Part shown: positions 10,192-21,925 of the stretch, one piece after another
Layout: each line of letters opens with the position of its first letter
Position numbering within the stretch: the first letter of the stretch is position 1
From: a virus
Strand: one strand, 5' to 3'
DNA length: 25,873 bases
IMG/VR virus record: IMGVR_UViG_3300025301_000098
Coordinates: 1 to 25,873 of that record
The notes under the pieces: generated by a model
Databases searched by the model: none
Told to the model about the DNA's origin: nothing
The model's input: only the letters and a program-made list of their open reading frames with translations
Program-made: the position numbers and the translations under genes

Positions 10192-10938
10192 TCACAATAC
10201 CCCTCGTCTCGGAGTGTTATCGCGGCGATAGGCCGCGTAAAGACCATGAATCTCGGCAGCGGTAAGGACCTTACCGAACACTGCAACTTCCGATATGTGG
10301 CCAGAGAAGAACGCGGTGGTATTATTCTCCGATCCTATAAACATGCTGGTGGACGCATCATTTGATCTTGATCCAACACCATTAACGGCGTTCTCCATGG
10401 CAACAGCAACGCCATTAAAGTACACCAATGCGTTTGCAGCAGTAGTTGACCCGTCCCATGTGCATGTAACCATCGTCCACACACTCTGGGTCGAACTGGT
10501 GGACAAGGGCAAAGATACGGCAGAGTCATTCCTCAGATTGGTGCTGCCGTGATCAACGAATATGCGAATTTTGCCGGTGCTGGTGAGAACCACTATCTTG
10601 ACCAAGGCTCCCTTTGTGAGAAGACGAGTAGCTACAGCAGTTGGCTTTGCCCAGAAGTTGTAGGAGAAGGTCGTCAGGTTGTCGATATTGGTTGCCGATC
10701 CCAAGGACACAGTGTCATTGCTGGCATCGAACAACACTCCCGAAGTTGACGGGCGAATCCTTCCTATGCCCTCGTTCGCATTTGTTATAGGCCCTCCGGT
10801 ATAGGTTGCGTTTACGGGGGTCGCGCCTGCGGCTGAAGGCATTGACCTGTCAATAGCGACAGTCTCCCCGGAAGGCTCGTCCATGGGGTAATACCGAAGA
10901 GGAATAAGATTGCCGAGTTTGCCTCGTATATTTTGCAT
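10192..10938 (-). CDS. LamG/concanavalin A-like lectin domain protein
   Basis: The 248-residue protein is taken from ATG 10938, which overlaps the upstream TGA (TGATG) with GGAGG 13 bases away; an in-frame GTG at 10959 is weaker. The pattern is that of a laminin-G/concanavalin-like jelly roll: YYPMDEPSG near the start, GVLFDASNDTVSLG, FSYNFWAKPTA, WTMVTCTWDGST, LVYFNGVAV, MFIGSENN, and a final GHISEVAVFGKVLTAAEIHGLY (in pieces). This last stretch is typical of LamG domains. It probably binds carbohydrate and could be a particle surface adhesin. It follows a small coupled gene and precedes the membrane protein. Confidence 0.85.
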   Translation of the reverse strand: MQNIRGKLGNLIPLRYYPMDEPSGETVAIDRSMPSAAGATPVNATYTGGPITNANEGIGRIRPSTSGVLFDASNDTVSLGSATNIDNLTTFSYNFWAKPTAVATRLLTKGALVKIVVLTSTGKIRIFVDHGSTNLRNDSAVSLPLSTSSTQSVWTMVTCTWDGSTTAANALVYFNGVAVAMENAVNGVGSRSNDASTSMFIGSENNTTAFFSGHISEVAVFGKVLTAAEIHGLYAAYRRDNTPRRGVL

Positions 10939-11180
10939 CAGTCGTCTGGAACCTCCCACTTGCTTGGTTCCGCCTTCATGATTGCTATCGACTCGCTCAG
11001 TGGTTTAAGTTTGCCTTCTAGTTCACTCGGAACAGTCTGTGGTTGCCCGCCCACAAACGGCTCAAACTCAACAATAGCAGTCTGGTTATCCAGAGATATC
11101 CGCAGATTTTCGCCTCCATGCGCATCAAGTTCATCCAAGCCGGATTGATTGGGCATGAATGCGTACAGGTATCTGGACAT
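10938..11180 (-). CDS. Small coupled protein, unknown
   Basis: The 80-residue protein starts at ATG 11180, overlapping the previous stop as TAATG, and its own TGA overlaps the next ATG. A longer in-frame start at 11246 would lie inside the upstream gene and is not needed. The sequence opens MSRYLYAFMPNQSGLDELDA and is acidic, with a beta-like middle (NQTAIVEFEPFVGGQ) and a helical end (LSESIAIMKAEPSKWEV). No family is recognised. The double overlap suggests it is made in step with its neighbours. Confidence 0.7.
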   Translation of the reverse strand: MSRYLYAFMPNQSGLDELDAHGGENLRISLDNQTAIVEFEPFVGGQPQTVPSELEGKLKPLSESIAIMKAEPSKWEVPDD

Positions 11181-11784: not shown

Positions 11785-12246
11785 TCAGGTAAACAGCATC
11801 AGCGTGACATCCGCATCTCCTTGACCATTGGCTACGTTTCTCTGCACGACGATACGGTCAAGCAGGGTGGTCGTAGTCTGGACGGTAGTTGAGACGATAG
11901 CCGACGTATTCGCCACGAAATCGTCACTGGAAAATATAAACGGCACGTTAGCGGTAATGCCGATAGCGGCGTAGTCGGGAGTGGTTGCGGTTGATCGGAA
12001 CTCAGCGAGAACTGCCTGATCGGACAAGATTATTCCCACGTCAAAATTAGATACCCCGGAATCTCCGGCGGTCCACATAGTCACGGCGGTGTAATTGTCG
12101 GCCACGATAGCTCTAGCGGAAAAATGCTCATCGTCCGTTGCCTTGATAGTCCTTGGCGCAGCCGTGGACAGGTCACCGATTTGCACAACTTGGCCGTTGG
12201 GAAATACAGCTTCGACGGAACTCCATATATTTACGTTGGTTGACAT
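11785..12246 (-). CDS. Beta-rich virion protein, unknown
   Basis: The 153-residue protein starts at ATG 12246 inside the 3' end of the Rossmann-like gene, with GGAGG seven bases upstream. It is nearly all Val, Thr, Ala, Asp and Ser with an alternating beta pattern (FSARAIVADNYTAVTMW and ALLAEFRST-like turns). No cysteine is present. A compact beta-sandwich structural protein is likely. Nothing ties it to a named family. It lies between the glycan-type enzymes and the LamG block. Confidence 0.7.
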   Translation of the reverse strand: MSTNVNIWSSVEAVFPNGQVVQIGDLSTAAPRTIKATDDEHFSARAIVADNYTAVTMWTAGDSGVSNFDVGIILSDQAVLAEFRSTATTPDYAAIGITANVPFIFSSDDFVANTSAIVSTTVQTTTTLLDRIVVQRNVANGQGDADVTLMLFT

Positions 12247-13001
12247 TGGCGGTCCTCCGTGACCTTTTTAGACATCATAGCATCCTTTTGCTCTTGGGAA
12301 ACAGCAAAATGATCTGCATGACTTGATACGACTGCCGTGGCCATTCGCCTGAAGTGTTCTCGCATCGCAGGTGTATCCGCCTGTTCTGGTGTCATGAAGC
12401 TGATTGGGAACGCCAAGCAGGCCCGGTACGCTGCGGCCAATACTTGATTCGCCAGGGTCTCGTTCTGCTGATAGGCATAGCCGTAGAAGGGCGGCGACCA
12501 CGGGAACGGCTTGGTAAGTTGAGTGTCTCCAAGAATATCCACACGCCTTCTAAGTCCCATGGCGACCCCAAGCCAGAACTCCATGCACGCCTTGTGCTGG
12601 AAGTATTCAATACTGTCGTGTAGATGGTACATGCCACACAGCACGATATGCTCAAGGCCCTCCGTGAGGGCATGGGCCAGCATGTACGCCCCGGTACACT
12701 GGAAATACTGGATATTAGTATTGAATGCCGAGACGACCTCATTCAGGGGAAACGCTTCTGATCTCGGAACTTCAGGCCATGGCTCTCGGCAAATAACCCG
12801 CACGTCTTCGGGCAGGTCGTTAAGTCCATCTATAAATTCTTGGTCGAACTGGTGAATGTTGTCGAAGAAGTAGACTCTGGTCACGCCCGGCTGCCTCATG
12901 AAAGCCCGGTTGATGCACCATATTTCGATGTCGCCAGCATCGTCCTCGTTATAAGCCTCGATCATTCCGACCAGAACGACTTTTTTAGACTTGCATGGCA
13001 T
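12231..13001 (-). CDS. Rossmann-like phage accessory protein (partner of nucleotidyltransferase)
   Basis: The 256-residue product is taken from ATG 13001; an in-frame TTG at 13034 would extend it by 11 residues. The first strand is KKVVLVGMIEAYNEDD, then DIEIWCINRAF and TRVYFFDNIHQFD, a Rossmann-like alternation. Further on, FPLNEVVSAF, YFQCTGAYMLAHALTEG, HIVLCGMYHLHDSIEYFQH and FWLGVAMGLRRRVDIL follow. I recognise this general layout from uncharacterised phage proteins sometimes compared with DUF115/MptE-like folds. The first 17 bases overlap the end of the nucleotidyltransferase gene, so the two are probably made together. Substrate is unknown; a role in sugar or surface-glycan chemistry is inferred from the partner. 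Confidence 0.65.
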   Translation of the reverse strand: MPCKSKKVVLVGMIEAYNEDDAGDIEIWCINRAFMRQPGVTRVYFFDNIHQFDQEFIDGLNDLPEDVRVICREPWPEVPRSEAFPLNEVVSAFNTNIQYFQCTGAYMLAHALTEGLEHIVLCGMYHLHDSIEYFQHKACMEFWLGVAMGLRRRVDILGDTQLTKPFPWSPPFYGYAYQQNETLANQVLAAAYRACLAFPISFMTPEQADTPAMREHFRRMATAVVSSHADHFAVSQEQKDAMMSKKVTEDRQCQPT

Positions 13002-13677
13002 ATCGGGATTCCCATAGGCCCTTGGCCAGTGCAAAAGAATTAGAGTCGTGAATCTCCATCACATCACCCTTCTGGCTTACAACCGGCACGAACGAGTTGG
13101 CCACGCCACCAGAGACCCGCTCGGCCAGCGGGCCTCCGTCCACGATATACCTGTCCGGCATCTCTTCAGACCGTATCGGCATGTCGTCTTCATCGTACCT
13201 CGCGACCCCATCTTTATCTATATAACAGGCATAGAATGGGTGTTCTTGGTCCGCCTTGAACATGGTCCTGGCCCTTGCCGCCCCGCCCTCCATGGCCATG
13301 ATAGTCTCGTCGATCAGCTTGGGCTTCATGATCAGGCAACATCCCATCAGGCGTACAGACACGAAGTCTTCAACTTGACCGTTACGCGACCTCCACTGCA
13401 AAGAATTCCACTCCACGATCTTCTCGTTCTGACCATCAAGATCGTCTTCCTCCTGACACAAGCGGTCATCCCGGTCGTAGAATTCCACGCCAGCCTCTAC
13501 CGCTATCTGCTGGATGTCCGGGCAATTAGTGGACACGACGACATCCGCAGCCAGAGAACTCCCCTTGGCAGCGTCCATAACGTGACGGATGACGGGATAT
13601 CCGTCTATCAGAAGCAGGTGCTTCTTCGGGAGCCTCGTGGACCCGGCCCTAGCCTCGATGAATATCACGCTGGTCAA
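12985..13677 (-). CDS. Cytidylyltransferase-like nucleotidyltransferase (CMP-sugar synthetase family)
   Basis: The 230-residue protein opens with IFIEARAGSTRLPKKHLL (residues 5-22), the nucleotide-binding loop of the SpsF/KdsB/CMP-NeuAc synthetase family, followed by GYPVIRHVMDAA. Further family-like parts are VVVSTNCPDIQQIAVEAGVEF (46-66, in pieces), EDFVSVRLMGCCLIMKPKLID, and a C-terminal DVMEIHDSNSFALAKG. Such enzymes join CTP to an acidic sugar for surface glycans. The start is uncertain: TTG 13677 or GTG 13668, both with weak ribosome binding sites. It directly follows three capsid-block genes and a terminator, an unusual place for a sugar-nucleotide enzyme. Substrate cannot be told. Confidence 0.8.
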   Translation of the reverse strand: MTSVIFIEARAGSTRLPKKHLLLIDGYPVIRHVMDAAKGSSLAADVVVSTNCPDIQQIAVEAGVEFYDRDDRLCQEEDDLDGQNEKIVEWNSLQWRSRNGQVEDFVSVRLMGCCLIMKPKLIDETIMAMEGGAARARTMFKADQEHPFYACYIDKDGVARYDEDDMPIRSEEMPDRYIVDGGPLAERVSGGVANSFVPVVSQKGDVMEIHDSNSFALAKGLWESRYAMQV

Positions 13678-13746
13678 TTATCATTCACCATTCCAATTAC
13701 GCGGACGTAGCGGCGGTCACTGTGCCGGTGGCATAGGTCACTCCCG

Positions 13747-13789: not shown

Positions 13790-14326
13790 TTAAGCAACGC
13801 GGTAGACGATAAACGTATTCGCCGCAGATCGCCGGTAGAAGAACATGCCGGTCGCAACGTTACCGTCCGCATCCTGAGCATCAACAACCGGGTCTCCAAC
13901 GACGGTCACGCCAGAGCCAGCGGTTAAGGTGATGTCACGGCCCGCCCCAGTTGCCAGATTTAAGATGCTCTGAAAGAAACCGTCACCATTAGCAACAGTT
14001 CCGGGCAAAGCAGCTTCAATCTGCGTACCCGTTCGCGTAGTAAACGCTGCCGCAGAGGTAGGAGTAGCCTCGATAATGCGGGCGATCTGCTCGGCAGCAC
14101 TAAACGTCGCACTATCATCAAGACCAGTCTCAGCAGCAGCGATAGAATACATCTGCGGTACCTGCGCCGAGTCCATGTGCTGAAACGTCTCGCGTCCGGT
14201 GTGCGTTTCCGCTCCCGTATGCGTTTCCGCGCCAGTGTGGGTCTCCACACCAGTGTGCGTGTGTGCTACAGTGCTTTTGATAATTTCAGAACCGACAAGT
14301 CGTTTTGTTTCAGTTCTATTAGGCAT
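13790..14326 (-). CDS. Capsid decoration/head-fibre-like protein with His-rich repeats
   Basis: The 178-residue product is taken from ATG 14326 with AAAGG eight bases upstream. An in-frame ATG at 14413 would add a cysteine-rich 29-residue extension but lacks a ribosome binding site and lies just behind a terminator. Residues 23-46 are four six-residue repeats of the form THTG-x-E, placing a histidine every six residues. The C-terminal third (DITLTAGSGVTVVGD, then FFYRRSAANTFIVYRV) matches a beta domain I know from the C-termini of many phage head and structural proteins. It follows the capsid and a smaller decoration-like gene, so a head-surface role is likely. Confidence 0.75.
   Translation of the reverse strand: MPNRTETKRLVGSEIIKSTVAHTHTGVETHTGAETHTGAETHTGRETFQHMDSAQVPQMYSIAAAETGLDDSATFSAAEQIARIIEATPTSAAAFTTRTGTQIEAALPGTVANGDGFFQSILNLATGAGRDITLTAGSGVTVVGDPVVDAQDADGNVATGMFFYRRSAANTFIVYRVA
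14189..14260 (-). repeat. Four 18-bp tandem repeats encoding THTG-x-E
   Basis: Four consecutive 18-nt units encode THTGVE, THTGAE, THTGAE and THTGRE. The DNA copies differ at third positions, so the array is not very recent. Confidence 0.9.
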
Positions 14327-14420
14327 AACTTGGACCTTTCGCGGGGTGATTTCTAAGCAGCAGTTCCCGACCCCATCGCGGGTGCTGCCATGACCACATG
14401 TACAAGCGGCCATAGTCTGA

Positions 14421-14502: not shown

Positions 14503-14985
14503 TTATCCTGAAGCCGAACCGGAGGAGTTAAACGCCCATCCGTCGAACAGGACCTTTATCACGGTTGCCGACCCACCTGTGGTCCCGGCCTCCAACGCAA
14601 ATCCGATCCCAGCATTCCCGTCCGTTCGCTTTGTGGCTATAGCGGAAGCCTGGGGCATAATACTGTCTGTAATAGCCACCGCAGTAGAGGGGGCGACCAA
14701 GCATCCGTGGATGCCGCGAATCAGGAATTTGCCCTGCTTGTCATTGGCCGTTGCCTCCATGGCCAAGCAGAATAGCCAGCCTTCCAGATGGGCCGTGACG
14801 GGTTCGATGACGTTGGCGAAGGGATCGTTCGCGGTGGTCGTGTAAGCGTCCACGTCGCCGTCCGTGCCGCCAAGATCGAAGGCGCACACGTCACCGATGT
14901 CCAGTGTGGCTCCAGTTCTGTTCGTGGCGAAAGTGGTAATCGTCTGAGCTTCCACCCACGAACCCGGTACAGTAAAAAGAGGCAT
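14503..14985 (-). CDS. Small head protein, probable capsid decoration/cement protein
   Basis: The 160-residue product is taken from ATG 14985, with AAGGAG seven bases upstream; an in-frame ATG at 15072 lies close to a terminator and has no good ribosome binding site. It begins MPLFTVPGSWVEAQTIT and is rich in Thr, Ala, Gly and Asp with a beta pattern (ATLDIGDVCAFDLGG and VIKVLFDGWAF). Size, composition and place right after the major capsid gene fit a decoration or head-stabilising protein. It is set off by its own terminator on each side, so it may be expressed at a different level from the capsid. Confidence 0.7.
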   Translation of the reverse strand: MPLFTVPGSWVEAQTITTFATNRTGATLDIGDVCAFDLGGTDGDVDAYTTTANDPFANVIEPVTAHLEGWLFCLAMEATANDKQGKFLIRGIHGCLVAPSTAVAITDSIMPQASAIATKRTDGNAGIGFALEAGTTGGSATVIKVLFDGWAFNSSGSASG

Positions 14986-15011
14986 CTGTGATCTCCTTAT
15001 GCTGCCCCTGC

Positions 15012-15025
15012 CTGCTCCGGAGCAG
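15012..15025. other. 14-bp perfect palindrome in leader of the 160-residue gene
   Basis: CTGCTCCGGAGCAG is its own reverse complement and lies between the capsid terminator and the AAGGAG of the next gene. It could be a protein-binding site or a small leader hairpin; nothing decides which. Confidence 0.4.
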
Positions 15026-15081
15026 TCCCCGGCCAGTAAGGCTGCAACACTCAGGTTGTTGCGGACATCCATGCCCGCGTG

Positions 15082-15120: not shown

Positions 15121-16203
15121 TTAACTAGCCTGCAAGTAACCCTGACGCTGCCTCGACAGGCAGACCAAGTTGCAGTAAGTATCGACCCACGCCACCATCG
15201 TGTCCGGCTGATCCGGGAACACTTGCGGAGTTCCGACCTGCATGAACTTCTGGCGGTGGAACACCAACTTGATGTGGCTCATGTTCAGGAAGATGTAATC
15301 CGGGCTTCCTGAAGAGAACGAAGTGGCATCGTCCATACCCTCGTTGTTCACGACGGGGATATTCAGGAACACGGGGTTCCCGTAGGCGGGGTCCTGTGGA
15401 CCCGCTCTGGTGATGTCGTTGTTCGCCCGCACGGCCTTCATGTAATCCTTTCGGCCTTCGCGGTTGGTGAAGATAACCATCCGGCGGAAGTCGTCGTCGG
15501 AGAAATACTCCTGCGAGGATGGCGGACGTTTGAACACGACCAACTGGCTGATCGTGTCGAACCCGGCGATGATGCCGTTGTCGGTATCAAACGGTGTCGA
15601 AGCCGTGTAGGTGGTATTTTGGTTCTGCCACGCAGACTTCGACGACGGGTTGATTCCCAAAACATTCGTGAATCCGGAAGGCGCGAGGCCGTCCGAAGTA
15701 ACGAAAGCAAAGATGGAATACGGATCAGTACCGGTGGCCGCTTCCATGTTTGCGTTGCTGGCGGCGGCTGTCATAAACCGCTCCATCTTGTTGAAGAGCG
15801 AGGTGTACGCCTGCTGGTACTTGAACCTCTTGATTCTCTTGTACTGCTGGAACATGGCGTTCTCGCCGCCACCTTCATTGAGCAGGACTTCCTGCTCGTT
15901 CCAAGTTATGGGAACACGGACGAATCGCCAGTTGGCGGTGAGCGTCGTCGCTCCCTGTATGTTAGACACGCTGGCCTTTTCGCCGGGGAGATAGGCCCCT
16001 GCCGTCAGCGGGTCGTCCAGAAGAATCACATCCTTGATCTGCGAACCGCCTTGCACTTCTTTCTTGGCGGCATAGAACGCAGACAGGGATGCGAAGTTAC
16101 GAAGTTGCGCATCATTGATCACATCGTCGGGACCCGACAGGTACGCGGGACCCGTTCCATCGGTAAAAAAATCAGTAAATAGACTTAGGGCTGCACCGGC
16201 CAT
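15121..16203 (-). CDS. Major capsid protein (HK97-type fold expected)
   Basis: The 360-residue protein starts at ATG 16203 with AAGGAG upstream. Size and position directly after an acidic scaffold and before a decoration-like protein are those of a phage major capsid protein. Visible features include an N-terminal helical arm (FASLSAFYAAKKEVQGG), WRFVRVPITWNEQEVLLNEGG, a long helical region with KRIKRFKYQQAYTSLFNKMER (in pieces), and late beta parts PVFLNIPVVNNEGM and YIFLNMSHIKLVFH. I know similar sequences as capsid proteins of podovirus-like and environmental phages. It assembles the icosahedral shell. A terminator follows at once, so it is probably transcribed most strongly. Confidence 0.85.
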   Translation of the reverse strand: MAGAALSLFTDFFTDGTGPAYLSGPDDVINDAQLRNFASLSAFYAAKKEVQGGSQIKDVILLDDPLTAGAYLPGEKASVSNIQGATTLTANWRFVRVPITWNEQEVLLNEGGGENAMFQQYKRIKRFKYQQAYTSLFNKMERFMTAAASNANMEAATGTDPYSIFAFVTSDGLAPSGFTNVLGINPSSKSAWQNQNTTYTASTPFDTDNGIIAGFDTISQLVVFKRPPSSQEYFSDDDFRRMVIFTNREGRKDYMKAVRANNDITRAGPQDPAYGNPVFLNIPVVNNEGMDDATSFSSGSPDYIFLNMSHIKLVFHRQKFMQVGTPQVFPDQPDTMVAWVDTYCNLVCLSRQRQGYLQAS

Positions 16204-17921: not shown

Positions 17922-19763
17922 CTATGATCCAAAAGCCTCGGCGTTCATTCCGCCAGATTCCCTAGCAAGGGCAATGTGGGCGCGTCCTGTCATTGACGAA
18001 GGTATGTTGGCCCTGTCTCCGGGCAATCTCGGGGACGATGCCGAAGCCACTCGGGCCGCTTGGCTTTCCATCTGCTGCTGGGCCGCGCCCGGATTGGCCT
18101 GTTGCATAAGGGCATTGCTCTGGGCTTCCGCAAGTTTCTGGAAATCTATCCAGTCGTCTGCATCGCCCACGTTAAGCGACTGAAACAGTGTTCTGACCGG
18201 CTCCCGCCACTTGATCCACGGTGTCTGCGACATGACTTGGGACAGGCTGGACACCGTCTCGAATGCCAACTGGACTCTTCTCTGGAACATGGCCTGATCG
18301 GTATGCTCCATACTGAGAGGGTCTATCGAAAGACTAAGATCGAAGAAGTTGAAATGCTCGCGTCCGCCTTCAATTCCGCCTTGGAACTCGCTGACGCCAA
18401 GACGCTTGCCTTCCTCTCCTAAACTGGCCGAGAAGTCTTCGCCATAAAACCCGTACCACGCGGCAGTTTTGAATATTGTTGCCACAGCCATGCGGAACTG
18501 ACGCTTGATGCCGCCAATCCGGGCCTTTACGCCGGTATCCGCTATGCTGGCTTCCGTTGCGGTAACACCGCTCGTCTCGCCGCGATAAGCGTCCGAGAGT
18601 CCAGAGACACGGTTCAACCTTTCTCGGGAGAACGATACGAATTTGTACTCGGCCTCAGAGGTTCCGCCGATCTCCATCTGCCCTATCTTATCAGTGTCGT
18701 CCAAAAGGATCACGTCCCCGTTGCTGGCGTGCTTGATCGTCTCCATGTCAGCCGTATTGGACTTCTCTCCATAAGCAAACTTCTTGAACCCTGCGGCATT
18801 TTCAGCAGCCGCTGTGGTATGCGCGTTCAATTCCTCCCACTGCTCTGCCGTTGCCGCCAGAGGAGAGAGCGGATACGGCGAGTTCATGACTTTCATGGAC
18901 CCGTGCATCACATAGGGACCCCATGGCGGCGCGTAGGCTGGCCTCGGGTCCCTAATCATGTACGCTTTCTTGGAGGTTCCCGCCGGGGTATTGGCGACAG
19001 CCACGGTGTATATGGTCCCGTTGTATTCGGGGGCATCGGAAAGCTCGTTCATCTCCGGGACCCAGATGTCCCAAGCCACTATCTCGTTCCTCGTCGGTAT
19101 CGACAGGTGCTTGCGTTCTGCAAGGTAAACCTCAACATCCGCATCAACCGACAGCTTTTCTATCACGTCGGAGTTGTAATCCGGATCATCTACAAGGTCG
19201 TCCTTGTCCGCTATCCACATGTGTCCCATGTACCTAGGGCCATTGGATTGCATCGGATTCCAAGTCATGGCGGCTGGATCGAGAATGAAATGCTGCGGTG
19301 CGATCCTGATGATGTAGGGCTGCTGCGGGGTCATCTCGACCCCTTGGTATCCCGGCTGGTTTCCTATGGTCACCAAGGCCACCATGTGGGCGAACATGAA
19401 GTCCACGGCCATATCGCTCAGTGGCTGGGCCACATTGGAATCTTCGGACCACCTGTTCAGGAACAACTCCAACCCCTGGGCCATGTCGCCCATGGTGGTC
19501 ATGCCGAACGCATCGGTCATGTCCGGCCTGGCTGCCCTTATCTTGCAACGGGGGTTGTCGTAAACAAGTGTCGGCAACATCACCGACTGGTACTCGTAGC
19601 CGTGATTCTCGGTAACGGGCGACCCCGGCTTGCGATCCACCCGATAGAACCGGCCATACGAGCGTCGGATGAGGTCATCCAGACGGTCTAAAAACTTTTC
19701 GCGAAACTCGGTGGCCGCGAGAATTTCCTGCCTCAGGCTATCGGCATCGACTTTAAGCGACAT
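17922..19763 (-). CDS. Portal protein
   Basis: The 613-residue protein starts at ATG 19763 with GGAGG nine bases upstream and overlaps the end of the previous gene. Size and position between terminase and scaffold are those of a portal. Visible portal-like parts are an N-terminal helical region (DRLDDLIRRSYGRFYRV), SVMLPTLVYDNPRCKI, PYIIRIAPQHFILDP, the helical SFSRERLNRVSGLSDAYRGETSGVTATEA (in pieces), and a helical, Gln/Ala-rich C-terminus (NALMQQANPGAAQQQMES). The portal forms the ring at one head vertex through which DNA enters and leaves and to which terminase and adaptors bind. Confidence 0.85.
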   Translation of the reverse strand: MSLKVDADSLRQEILAATEFREKFLDRLDDLIRRSYGRFYRVDRKPGSPVTENHGYEYQSVMLPTLVYDNPRCKIRAARPDMTDAFGMTTMGDMAQGLELFLNRWSEDSNVAQPLSDMAVDFMFAHMVALVTIGNQPGYQGVEMTPQQPYIIRIAPQHFILDPAAMTWNPMQSNGPRYMGHMWIADKDDLVDDPDYNSDVIEKLSVDADVEVYLAERKHLSIPTRNEIVAWDIWVPEMNELSDAPEYNGTIYTVAVANTPAGTSKKAYMIRDPRPAYAPPWGPYVMHGSMKVMNSPYPLSPLAATAEQWEELNAHTTAAAENAAGFKKFAYGEKSNTADMETIKHASNGDVILLDDTDKIGQMEIGGTSEAEYKFVSFSRERLNRVSGLSDAYRGETSGVTATEASIADTGVKARIGGIKRQFRMAVATIFKTAAWYGFYGEDFSASLGEEGKRLGVSEFQGGIEGGREHFNFFDLSLSIDPLSMEHTDQAMFQRRVQLAFETVSSLSQVMSQTPWIKWREPVRTLFQSLNVGDADDWIDFQKLAEAQSNALMQQANPGAAQQQMESQAARVASASSPRLPGDRANIPSSMTGRAHIALARESGGMNAEAFGS

Positions 19764-20317: not shown

Positions 20318-21886
20318 TCAAATGCGATCTGTAGACCATATTGGCGGGCTTGGCTGTGGCCCGAAAATCTTGTCCATTCCAAGCATAGCCCCAAATGAAT
20401 CCTTCGGCAAGCCTGGAACGCCCGGCTCTTGCCATAAGTTTCTATTATTAGAGAACCCGGCGGCGTAGGCGAGAGCGTCCACCTGATCGTCGTGGGACCC
20501 GTGAGGGAAACTAATCAGTTCAGATTCCAATTCATTGAGCCACGATATCCTCTTTGGGAAAAATATCTTGCCATTTTCGATCCAGATCGATCCGATCAAG
20601 GCTCTGGTAATCTTCTGCCTGTCGGCTTTCATGGACTTTACGGTAATTCCGTCCCGCTTGAACCTCTGAATGGCAGCAGTTCCCGTAGTTCTGTCCTCGA
20701 TTCCGATGAACAGCGGATGCCACAGTTCCTCCATGATCCGCATTTGCTTTTCCACGTCCGGGGCTTGAAGCTGATCCCGGAACTGCTCCACCAGAATCAT
20801 ATCGTTTTCGTTCTTGTCAACGTCCCAGACCTGAATAACCGTGTAATCCGACTGGGTTTTGTCCGTGAAAGCCAGATCGCAGGTCATAAACCGCCAGCAA
20901 TGGTCTTTTTGAATTCTACGGTCAGCCTGGTCTCCCCGCTTCAAGATGTAGTAGTTGTCCTGCTCTTCGTAATACCGGAACCAAGACCGGTTGAACATGC
21001 CGCCACCGGCTGGAACCGGTCTTTGTTGGTACAGGGCGTTCCACGATCTGGTCCCCTCGACCCTCTTGATACGCTCCAAGTCTTCCTTGGTGTAACGCTC
21101 AGGCCAAAGAGGATCGCCAGCTTCCCGCTTCAGTGGATCATCCTCCTCGGCCATGGCTGGCAAGTTCACCAGCCTCCACTTCTCGCCGCCAGCCCTCTCT
21201 TCTGACAGAAGTCTCCCGATAAGATCGTCCTCGTGCCAGCGTGTACTTACCACCACCATGCTGGCCCCCGGCTCAAGACGGGTATACATGACCGACCTGT
21301 ACCAGTCCCATATCTTGTCCCGGACAACTTGGGACTCCGCCTCTTCCTGATTCTTGATCGGGTCGTCGATGATCCCTATATCGCAACCGCGACCGGCGAT
21401 GGGGCCTCCGACACCGGCGGTCATCATGGCCCCGCCTTCCGTAGTCTCCCATCTCTGGGCTGCCTTGGTATCCGTCCGGACATCTATGCCCAGTTTCTTG
21501 GCGTGAAGAACGATGGCGTCACGAACCTTCCGGCCCCACATGGACGCGGTATCAGCTTCGTATGAAGCCAATATGATCCTTTTGCCGGGGAATATCTGGA
21601 AAAACCACACCGGAAACCAGTGGCTTATCAAGTGGCTTTTACCATGACGCGGAGGCAGGGTTATGATCAGACGCCTGTGTGGGTAGTTGCTGGCGTCTTG
21701 AAGTTCCTGCGCCATCAATTCCACATGAGGGGGAATCTTGAATTCGTAATCCGTGAGATACTGCGCGGTGAGAGCGGGATTCAGTCGCCAGTAATTTTCC
21801 TGCATCCACGTCGCATCGAAAGCCACCCCGTCTATGGTGACCGGATCGGATGTGTACATCCGATTTGCGACTTGCGAGGTATCCAT
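20318..21886 (-). CDS. terL: Terminase large subunit (packaging ATPase-nuclease)
   Basis: The 522-residue product is taken from ATG 21886 with AAGGAG seven bases upstream; an upstream in-frame TTG at 21919 is less likely. The ATPase domain has the Walker A motif LPPRHGKS (77-84) and the Walker B motif IGIIDD (170-175). The C-terminal RNase H-like nuclease shows its acidic residues in CDLAF (D337), IGIED (E397/D398) and HDDQVDALAY (D466, D467, D470). It packages and cuts the phage genome at the portal. No small subunit is identifiable next to it. It is the first gene of the long minus-strand operon, behind a sigma70-like promoter. Confidence 0.95.
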   Translation of the reverse strand: MDTSQVANRMYTSDPVTIDGVAFDATWMQENYWRLNPALTAQYLTDYEFKIPPHVELMAQELQDASNYPHRRLIITLPPRHGKSHLISHWFPVWFFQIFPGKRIILASYEADTASMWGRKVRDAIVLHAKKLGIDVRTDTKAAQRWETTEGGAMMTAGVGGPIAGRGCDIGIIDDPIKNQEEAESQVVRDKIWDWYRSVMYTRLEPGASMVVVSTRWHEDDLIGRLLSEERAGGEKWRLVNLPAMAEEDDPLKREAGDPLWPERYTKEDLERIKRVEGTRSWNALYQQRPVPAGGGMFNRSWFRYYEEQDNYYILKRGDQADRRIQKDHCWRFMTCDLAFTDKTQSDYTVIQVWDVDKNENDMILVEQFRDQLQAPDVEKQMRIMEELWHPLFIGIEDRTTGTAAIQRFKRDGITVKSMKADRQKITRALIGSIWIENGKIFFPKRISWLNELESELISFPHGSHDDQVDALAYAAGFSNNRNLWQEPGVPGLPKDSFGAMLGMDKIFGPQPSPPIWSTDRI

Positions 21887-21897
21887 ACATGGACTCC

Positions 21898-21925
21898 TTG
21901 ACCCGTGTAGCGAACACAATACACT
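21898..21925 (+). promoter_or_regulatory. Sigma70-like promoter for the plus-strand operon
   Basis: TTGACC, a 16-base spacer, then TACACT. It would start transcription near 21932 and give a leader of about 125 bases before the 299-residue gene. Confidence 0.45.

Follow-up and report, generated by a model that had tools for sequence, protein, structure and literature searches.

A diverged cytidylyltransferase-like gene and a partner of predicted GT42-like fold in the head gene block of an uncultured phage

The gene pair within the late block

The window analysed here is a 25,873-nt stretch of viral DNA, comprising positions 1 to 25,873 of IMG/VR record IMGVR_UViG_3300025301_000098. Two longer contigs match it at 99.98%, and their overlap closes a circle of 57,369 bp. 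The minus strand carries a late block in the order terminase, portal, scaffold-like, major capsid, cement-like and repeat-bearing protein, followed by a nucleotidyltransferase (NTase) and the gene that we term its partner (Table 1). Further small genes, a LamG gene and then more late genes lie downstream. An earlier note on this DNA had described two overlapping genes set between the capsid block and virion genes, and this arrangement is confirmed. Both reading frames lie on the minus strand, with the genes for the major capsid protein, portal and terminase upstream on the same strand and virion genes downstream.

Table 1. Minus-strand features around the gene pair, in window coordinates
Feature	Position	Strand	Evidence
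Terminase	20318-21919	-	phrog_38, 6e-104
Portal	17922-19763	-	phrog_156, 1.7e-4
Major capsid protein	15121..16203	-	phrog_9953 major head protein, 4.7e-07
Possible decoration/cement protein, candidate acceptor	14503..15072	-	Phage_cement_2, E 0.048, weak
Late protein with HTGAET-type repeats, directly upstream of the pair	13790..14413	-	ORF; repeat in translation
NTase: NeuA/PseF/KdsB-class cytidylyltransferase-like, diverged	12985..13677	-	230 aa, TTG start; CTP_transf_3
Overlap of NTase end and partner start, 17 nt	12985..13001	-	Sequence read directly
Partner: GT42-sialyltransferase-like fold (predicted), divergent member of a phage head-block family	12231..13001	-	256 aa from ATG
Late protein directly downstream of the pair, 16-nt overlap with the pair	11785..12246	-	ORF
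LamG-like (ConA-like lectin fold), virion-type	10192..10959	-	Laminin_G_3, 3e-17; phrog_8510 virion structural protein, 3e-11

The short overlap between the two genes is consistent with translational coupling. The likely start of the partner is the ATG at 13001 (MPCKSKK...), with the NTase stop at 12985; an in-frame TTG upstream at 13034 would give a longer partner. Frames on the opposite strand over the pair (for example 13048-13710 on the plus strand, in a list of 141 ORFs) were set aside because homologues exist for the minus-strand ORFs. The products of the genes directly upstream and downstream of the pair have no family match in profile searches of Pfam and PHROGs. The upstream product is rich in Thr and contains tandem HTGVET/HTGAET/HTGRET repeats, and could possibly be an acceptor or decoration protein. 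The LamG gene lies about 1.27 kb downstream of the pair, as the earlier note had said, and it adds little to the glycan theme for which it had been cited.

Other features of this genome lie outside the pair. Positions 2-568 of the window (minus strand) are the start of a single late gene of 4005 aa (~12 kb) that runs to 20063 of the joined circle (L011), and has FEEVMG/YEEVMG repeats close to its N-terminus. In the block on the other strand, L010:5566-8782 (plus strand) encodes an AAA ATPase, one ORF and then a DUF2201 metallopeptidase/VWA protein (PF13203, 1.8e-49), the ATPase and DUF2201/VWA genes resembling MoxR-VWA pairs. The successive ORFs at L010:9453-9869 and L010:9961-10221 have the N-terminal peptide MKTNEVVNT in common.

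Family and predicted fold of the two proteins

The NTase had been read as an enzyme of the CMP-sugar-synthetase type from its P-loop (EARAGSTRLPKKH), and both profile and structure comparisons bear this out. It matches Pfam CTP_transf_3 with E = 5.5e-13 and 49.6 bits (curated cut-off 22.6). This is far above chance, and on its sequence the NTase is a genuine CTP_transf_3 protein. NeuA-type cytidylyltransferases use CTP to activate acidic sugars. The PseF equivalog model matches residues 5-177 (3.4e-11) with 43 bits, under its cut-off of 205.7, and the scores for KdsB and all the other equivalog models are likewise under cut-off. The AF2 model of the NTase has a pLDDT of 87.8, and its top fold match is the CMP-Neu5Ac synthetase of V. 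cholerae (6ifd, E = 5e-17, TM 0.77). CMP-Neu5Ac, CMP-Kdn and CMP-Pse synthetases rank first, with CMP-Kdo synthetases after them. The same NeuA structures are also picked out by a profile built from the phage NTases, with E from 1e-47 to 1e-57.

The residues for binding CTP and metal are retained in part. In the P-loop (R..GS.....K) R10, G12, S13 and K19 are present and N20 is replaced by H; R69 is also retained. By contrast the LxPTxPxR motif is gone. This section now reads RLMGCCLIM, with T113 replaced by C, P115 by L and R117 by M at sites that are at least 90% conserved in the set. The metal motif, canonically DID and present as DIN in several phage relatives, is EIH in the window. Glu and His could still bind a metal. 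In a tree the window NTase is not within the SpsF-like group and branches basally to the NeuA-like group, and since its branch is the longest of the whole tree (2.91) its exact position is unsure. Near-identical contigs carry an identical, intact NTase ORF.

The partner had been described as Rossmann-like, and this can now be sharpened. On its own it has no family match in single-sequence profile searches of Pfam, PHROGs and equivalog models. A weak tblastn match led to a protein of Microcystis phage Mvi-Yong1342-1 that is labelled 'type 11 methyltransferase' and encoded directly before the terminase genes (L016:5905-6708). That label looks wrong. A motif derived from this homologue, EYxxQRPxxEYx[L]G, was used in an exact scan of the viral contigs of IMG/VR, giving at least 120 partner loci, and a family HMM made from the proteins so found recognises the partner of the window (2.7e-32, one-sequence search). 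The window partner retains all the near-invariant residues (G12, W28, H50, P85, Y99, E132, E141, G145 and Y175). The QRP motif of the family (136-138) is HKA in the window, and conservation of QRP elsewhere is partly selected because it is also in the search pattern. Two GT42-like genes per contig occur in L027, L043, L098, L091, L113 and L122, lying close together in the first three.

When the family profile was compared with the PDB the best nine matches were all GT42 sialyltransferases, each weak (E 0.03-0.4). The AF2 model of the partner (pLDDT 81.2) has no membrane segment. In Foldseek its top five matches are all CstII (probability 0.99-1.00, E 0.001-0.02), with the sixth dropping to 0.21; global TM-scores against CstII are low, at 0.35-0.44. 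In a viral structure library uncharacterised phage proteins lead, and proteins labelled DUF115, MptE and GT29 come lower down. Alignment of the partner profile with MptE-like (PF01973) by hhalign gives a probability of 29% (E 5.9e-4), where unrelated control profiles give 0.2-0.4%. The Pfam model for PF01973 (Maf / MptE-like) does not match the partner family, which as searched is matched by neither Pfam nor PHROGs. Pfam CST-I (PF06002) has no match in ten partner or NTase virus records, in three MAGs, or among 96 family members scanned, and when 395 genomes of one phylum were searched for genuine GT42 sequences, a single sub-threshold match emerged. A weak match of the partner to UPF0374 disappears with the family profile, and was put down to local chance.

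Thus only GT42 emerges coherently from the two comparisons, by sequence profile and by AF2 model with Foldseek, and together they point to a partner with a GT42-like fold. We use this name, rather than calling it a GT42 member, because the profile and model matches are accompanied by no CST-I match.

Distribution of the family and its gene neighbours

Single-sequence searches of 50,697 phage records gave almost no matches, which by this measure makes the family all but absent from cultured phages. A scan of genome contigs found three MAG contigs only, which may be binned phage DNA. Among its relatives in viral contigs the pair recurs widely. There is an NTase in 27 of the 120 partner loci listed, which average 9.6 kb, and all 27 are on the same strand as the partner; this is weak evidence because 84% of the genes in partner loci share a strand. 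On whole partner-bearing records CTP_transf_3 is found in 20 of 50 (16 of 46 without four records chosen knowing that it was present), and on those of at least 30 kb in 10 of 15 (8 of 13 minus two that were pre-known). In the other direction, 28 of 50 records bearing an NTase (NeuA) carry the partner. Of these, 25 are among the 29 records ranked first by NTase similarity, and 3 are among the 21 records at the end of the list, a group in which several are 60-170 kb long. Many partner genes have no NTase on their record. A NeuA-type gene is carried by 22% of partner loci, compared with a background of about 0.02% (2.9 million contigs gave 329 matching stretches), with the background rate estimated from the sensitivity of the scan (13/27) and not from matched control contigs.

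Besides the window, 16 contig entries from about 11 further lineages have tight pairs, separated by at most 500 bp. Such pairs occur in both gene orders, and with NTases of the NeuA-like and SpsF-like groups alike. Such repeated pairing, in either order and with NTases of distinct clades, is an argument for a functional link, and shared phage ancestry may lie behind part of the co-occurrence. The sialic-acid synthase NeuB is present in 67 of 77 NeuA loci and, where partner and NeuA occur together, in 18 of 27 loci, its identity being confirmed by Pfam NeuB (up to 6e-78). The GT42-like fold and the NeuB of the relatives both lend substance to the glycan theme of the earlier note and make it more specific.

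We surveyed neighbours in 94 non-redundant, diverse partner loci. The nameable immediate neighbours are mostly head-tail adaptors (phrog_442 19 times, phrog_40 14 times) and major head proteins (phrog_10, 617, 15928, 1005, 29 and 267), where one gene can match several phrogs; tail spikes and four CTP_transf_3 genes were also found. In L172, L118, L028, L167 and L124 the NeuB-type, NeuA and partner genes lie amid terminase, portal, protease and capsid genes. Transketolase-type genes lie between NeuA and partner in two loci (L022:3805-5067 and L118:5181-6482), with SDR and FkbM methyltransferase genes nearby, and this arrangement may be a more extensive sugar module within the head block.

A possible virion-decorating module and its relation to known systems

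We propose that the pair is a reduced and diverged member of a nonulosonic-acid (sialic-acid-like) module in phage head blocks that decorates virion proteins. We regard this as plausible, if somewhat short of probable. The analysis establishes the predicted folds, the family relationships, the co-occurrence and the placement in the head block; the activity, sugar, acceptor and biological benefit are what we infer. In the full module NeuB would make a nonulosonic acid, NeuA would convert this with CTP into a CMP-sugar, and a soluble transferase of GT42 fold would add the sugar to Ser/Thr late in infection. Capsid, decoration or adaptor proteins would be the acceptors, modified as Maf does flagellin, and by the same analogy head proteins would be decorated while they are being made.

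The ~57 kb genome of the window phage showed no NeuB, so that any sugar, whether Kdo or a nonulosonic acid, would have to come from the host. The specificity of the diverged NTase would have changed, or the enzyme would be failing. Given the motif losses in the NTase, the change of QRP to HKA and the lack of NeuB, the activity of the window pair is uncertain. It is a diverged branch of the module, possibly decaying or re-specialised. There is thus good reason, at the level of the family, for the suggestion of the earlier note that the pair may furnish an activated sugar to decorate the virion, but for the window copy the motif changes leave it uncertain. The case for the family in general is better than that for this one copy.

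Judging by the relatives of the pair, uncultured phages may cover their own particles (or the surface of the host) with sialic-acid-like sugars, which are known as cell surface sugars. In its widest form, the proposal would be that a broad set of uncultured phages sialylates its own capsids, using a self-contained head-block NeuB-NeuA-GT42-like cassette to O-glycosylate head proteins with a sialic-acid-like sugar, through a transferase family that is almost confined to viruses and lies outside Pfam and PHROGs. This we advance tentatively, as possible rather than probable.

As the main alternative, the module could alter host surface glycans (LPS, capsule), for example in a block to superinfection or in release, with the late block reflecting only late expression. 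This is how NeuA, KdsA and other LPS genes in a marine virus (PMC5332604) and sugar clusters of cyanophages (PMC7824862) have been interpreted, and lipooligosaccharide is the substrate of characterised GT42 enzymes. We nevertheless consider it unlikely, as the partner repeatedly adjoins head-tail adaptor or major head genes in unrelated phages rather than lying in a polysaccharide cluster, the window has no further recognised genes for surface polysaccharides, and the partner model lacks a membrane segment. Placement of the genes in the head block thus favours the virion over the host surface as target.

A non-catalytic NTase is also to be weighed. It would be a degenerate or repurposed remnant, leaving the GT42-like protein alone to use CMP-Kdo or CMP-nonulosonate of the host, or the pair to play a structural, chaperone-like role in head assembly. 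The lost PTxPxR, the change of DID to EIH, the long branch, the genome without NeuB, and the many partner genes without any NTase are all consistent with this. Yet the ORF is intact and identical across near-identical contigs, R10, G12, S13, K19 and R69 are retained, Glu and His could still bind metal, and the fold is modelled at high confidence, and so we think a remnant rather unlikely. Modification of phage DNA or another non-virion target by a nucleotide-sugar route to hypermodified bases is highly improbable; DNA hypermodification by viral glycosyltransferases is known (cited in PMC12619734), but the NeuB neighbours and the head-block placement argue against it, and a non-exhaustive scan of ORFs from the 57 kb genome turned up no base-hypermodification genes.

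If decoration of the virion is correct, phages would use their own enzymes to put sialic-acid-like sugars on virus particles. Capsids might be shielded in this way, adsorption to mucus or host surfaces might be tuned, or phages might be recognised differently by the immune system. A function would also be found for a head-block gene family that is common (at least 120 IMG/VR contigs) but carries no annotation, and glycoengineering would gain short enzymes for the sialylation of proteins. No account of a NeuB-NeuA-GT42-like module in the head blocks of phages was found in the open-licence literature searched, so that its novelty is provisional.

The window NTase has its fold, P-loop and family profile in common with the NeuA, PseF and LegF CMP-nonulosonate synthetases, but lacks PTxPxR, has EIH in place of DID, and is only about 20% identical to characterised enzymes. 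CstI and CstII of GT42 (PF06002) are the only solved structures matched coherently by both the profile and the model of the partner. The partner differs from them in having no CST-I match and a low global TM-score, and it probably acts on a protein, not on lipooligosaccharide.

Sugar-nucleotide clusters of cyanophages and marine viruses likewise place NeuA-type genes in phage genomes (PMC5332604; L017), but have been interpreted as modifying the host surface (PMC5332604, PMC7824862), and among the last 21 NTase records listed, several of them 60-170 kb long, only 3 carry the GT42-like partner. In the marine virus AG-345-L05 (Kyanoviridae) there are consecutive unannotated SDR, NTase, aminotransferase and NeuB-like ORFs (L017:5243-8701). 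Capsid and tail proteins of mycobacteriophages carry glycans (Freeman 2023, as cited in PMC12619734), where the sections consulted make no mention of a module for nonulosonic-acid synthesis.

A close parallel to the proposed module is found in the Maf flagellin glycosyltransferases with NeuA/NeuB-type nonulosonic-acid genes. The central domain of Maf resembles CstII, and Maf O-glycosylates Ser/Thr of flagellin with CMP-nonulosonate or CMP-Kdo (PMC11339370). The likeness lies in the CMP-nonulosonate donor route, a CstII-like transferase domain, and cytoplasmic O-glycosylation of a self-assembling surface protein (PMC11339370). However, Maf is a three-domain cellular protein with a central domain of PF01973, whereas the phage partner is one short domain with no PF01973 match, has its own signature EYxxQRPxxEY, and is located in head gene blocks.
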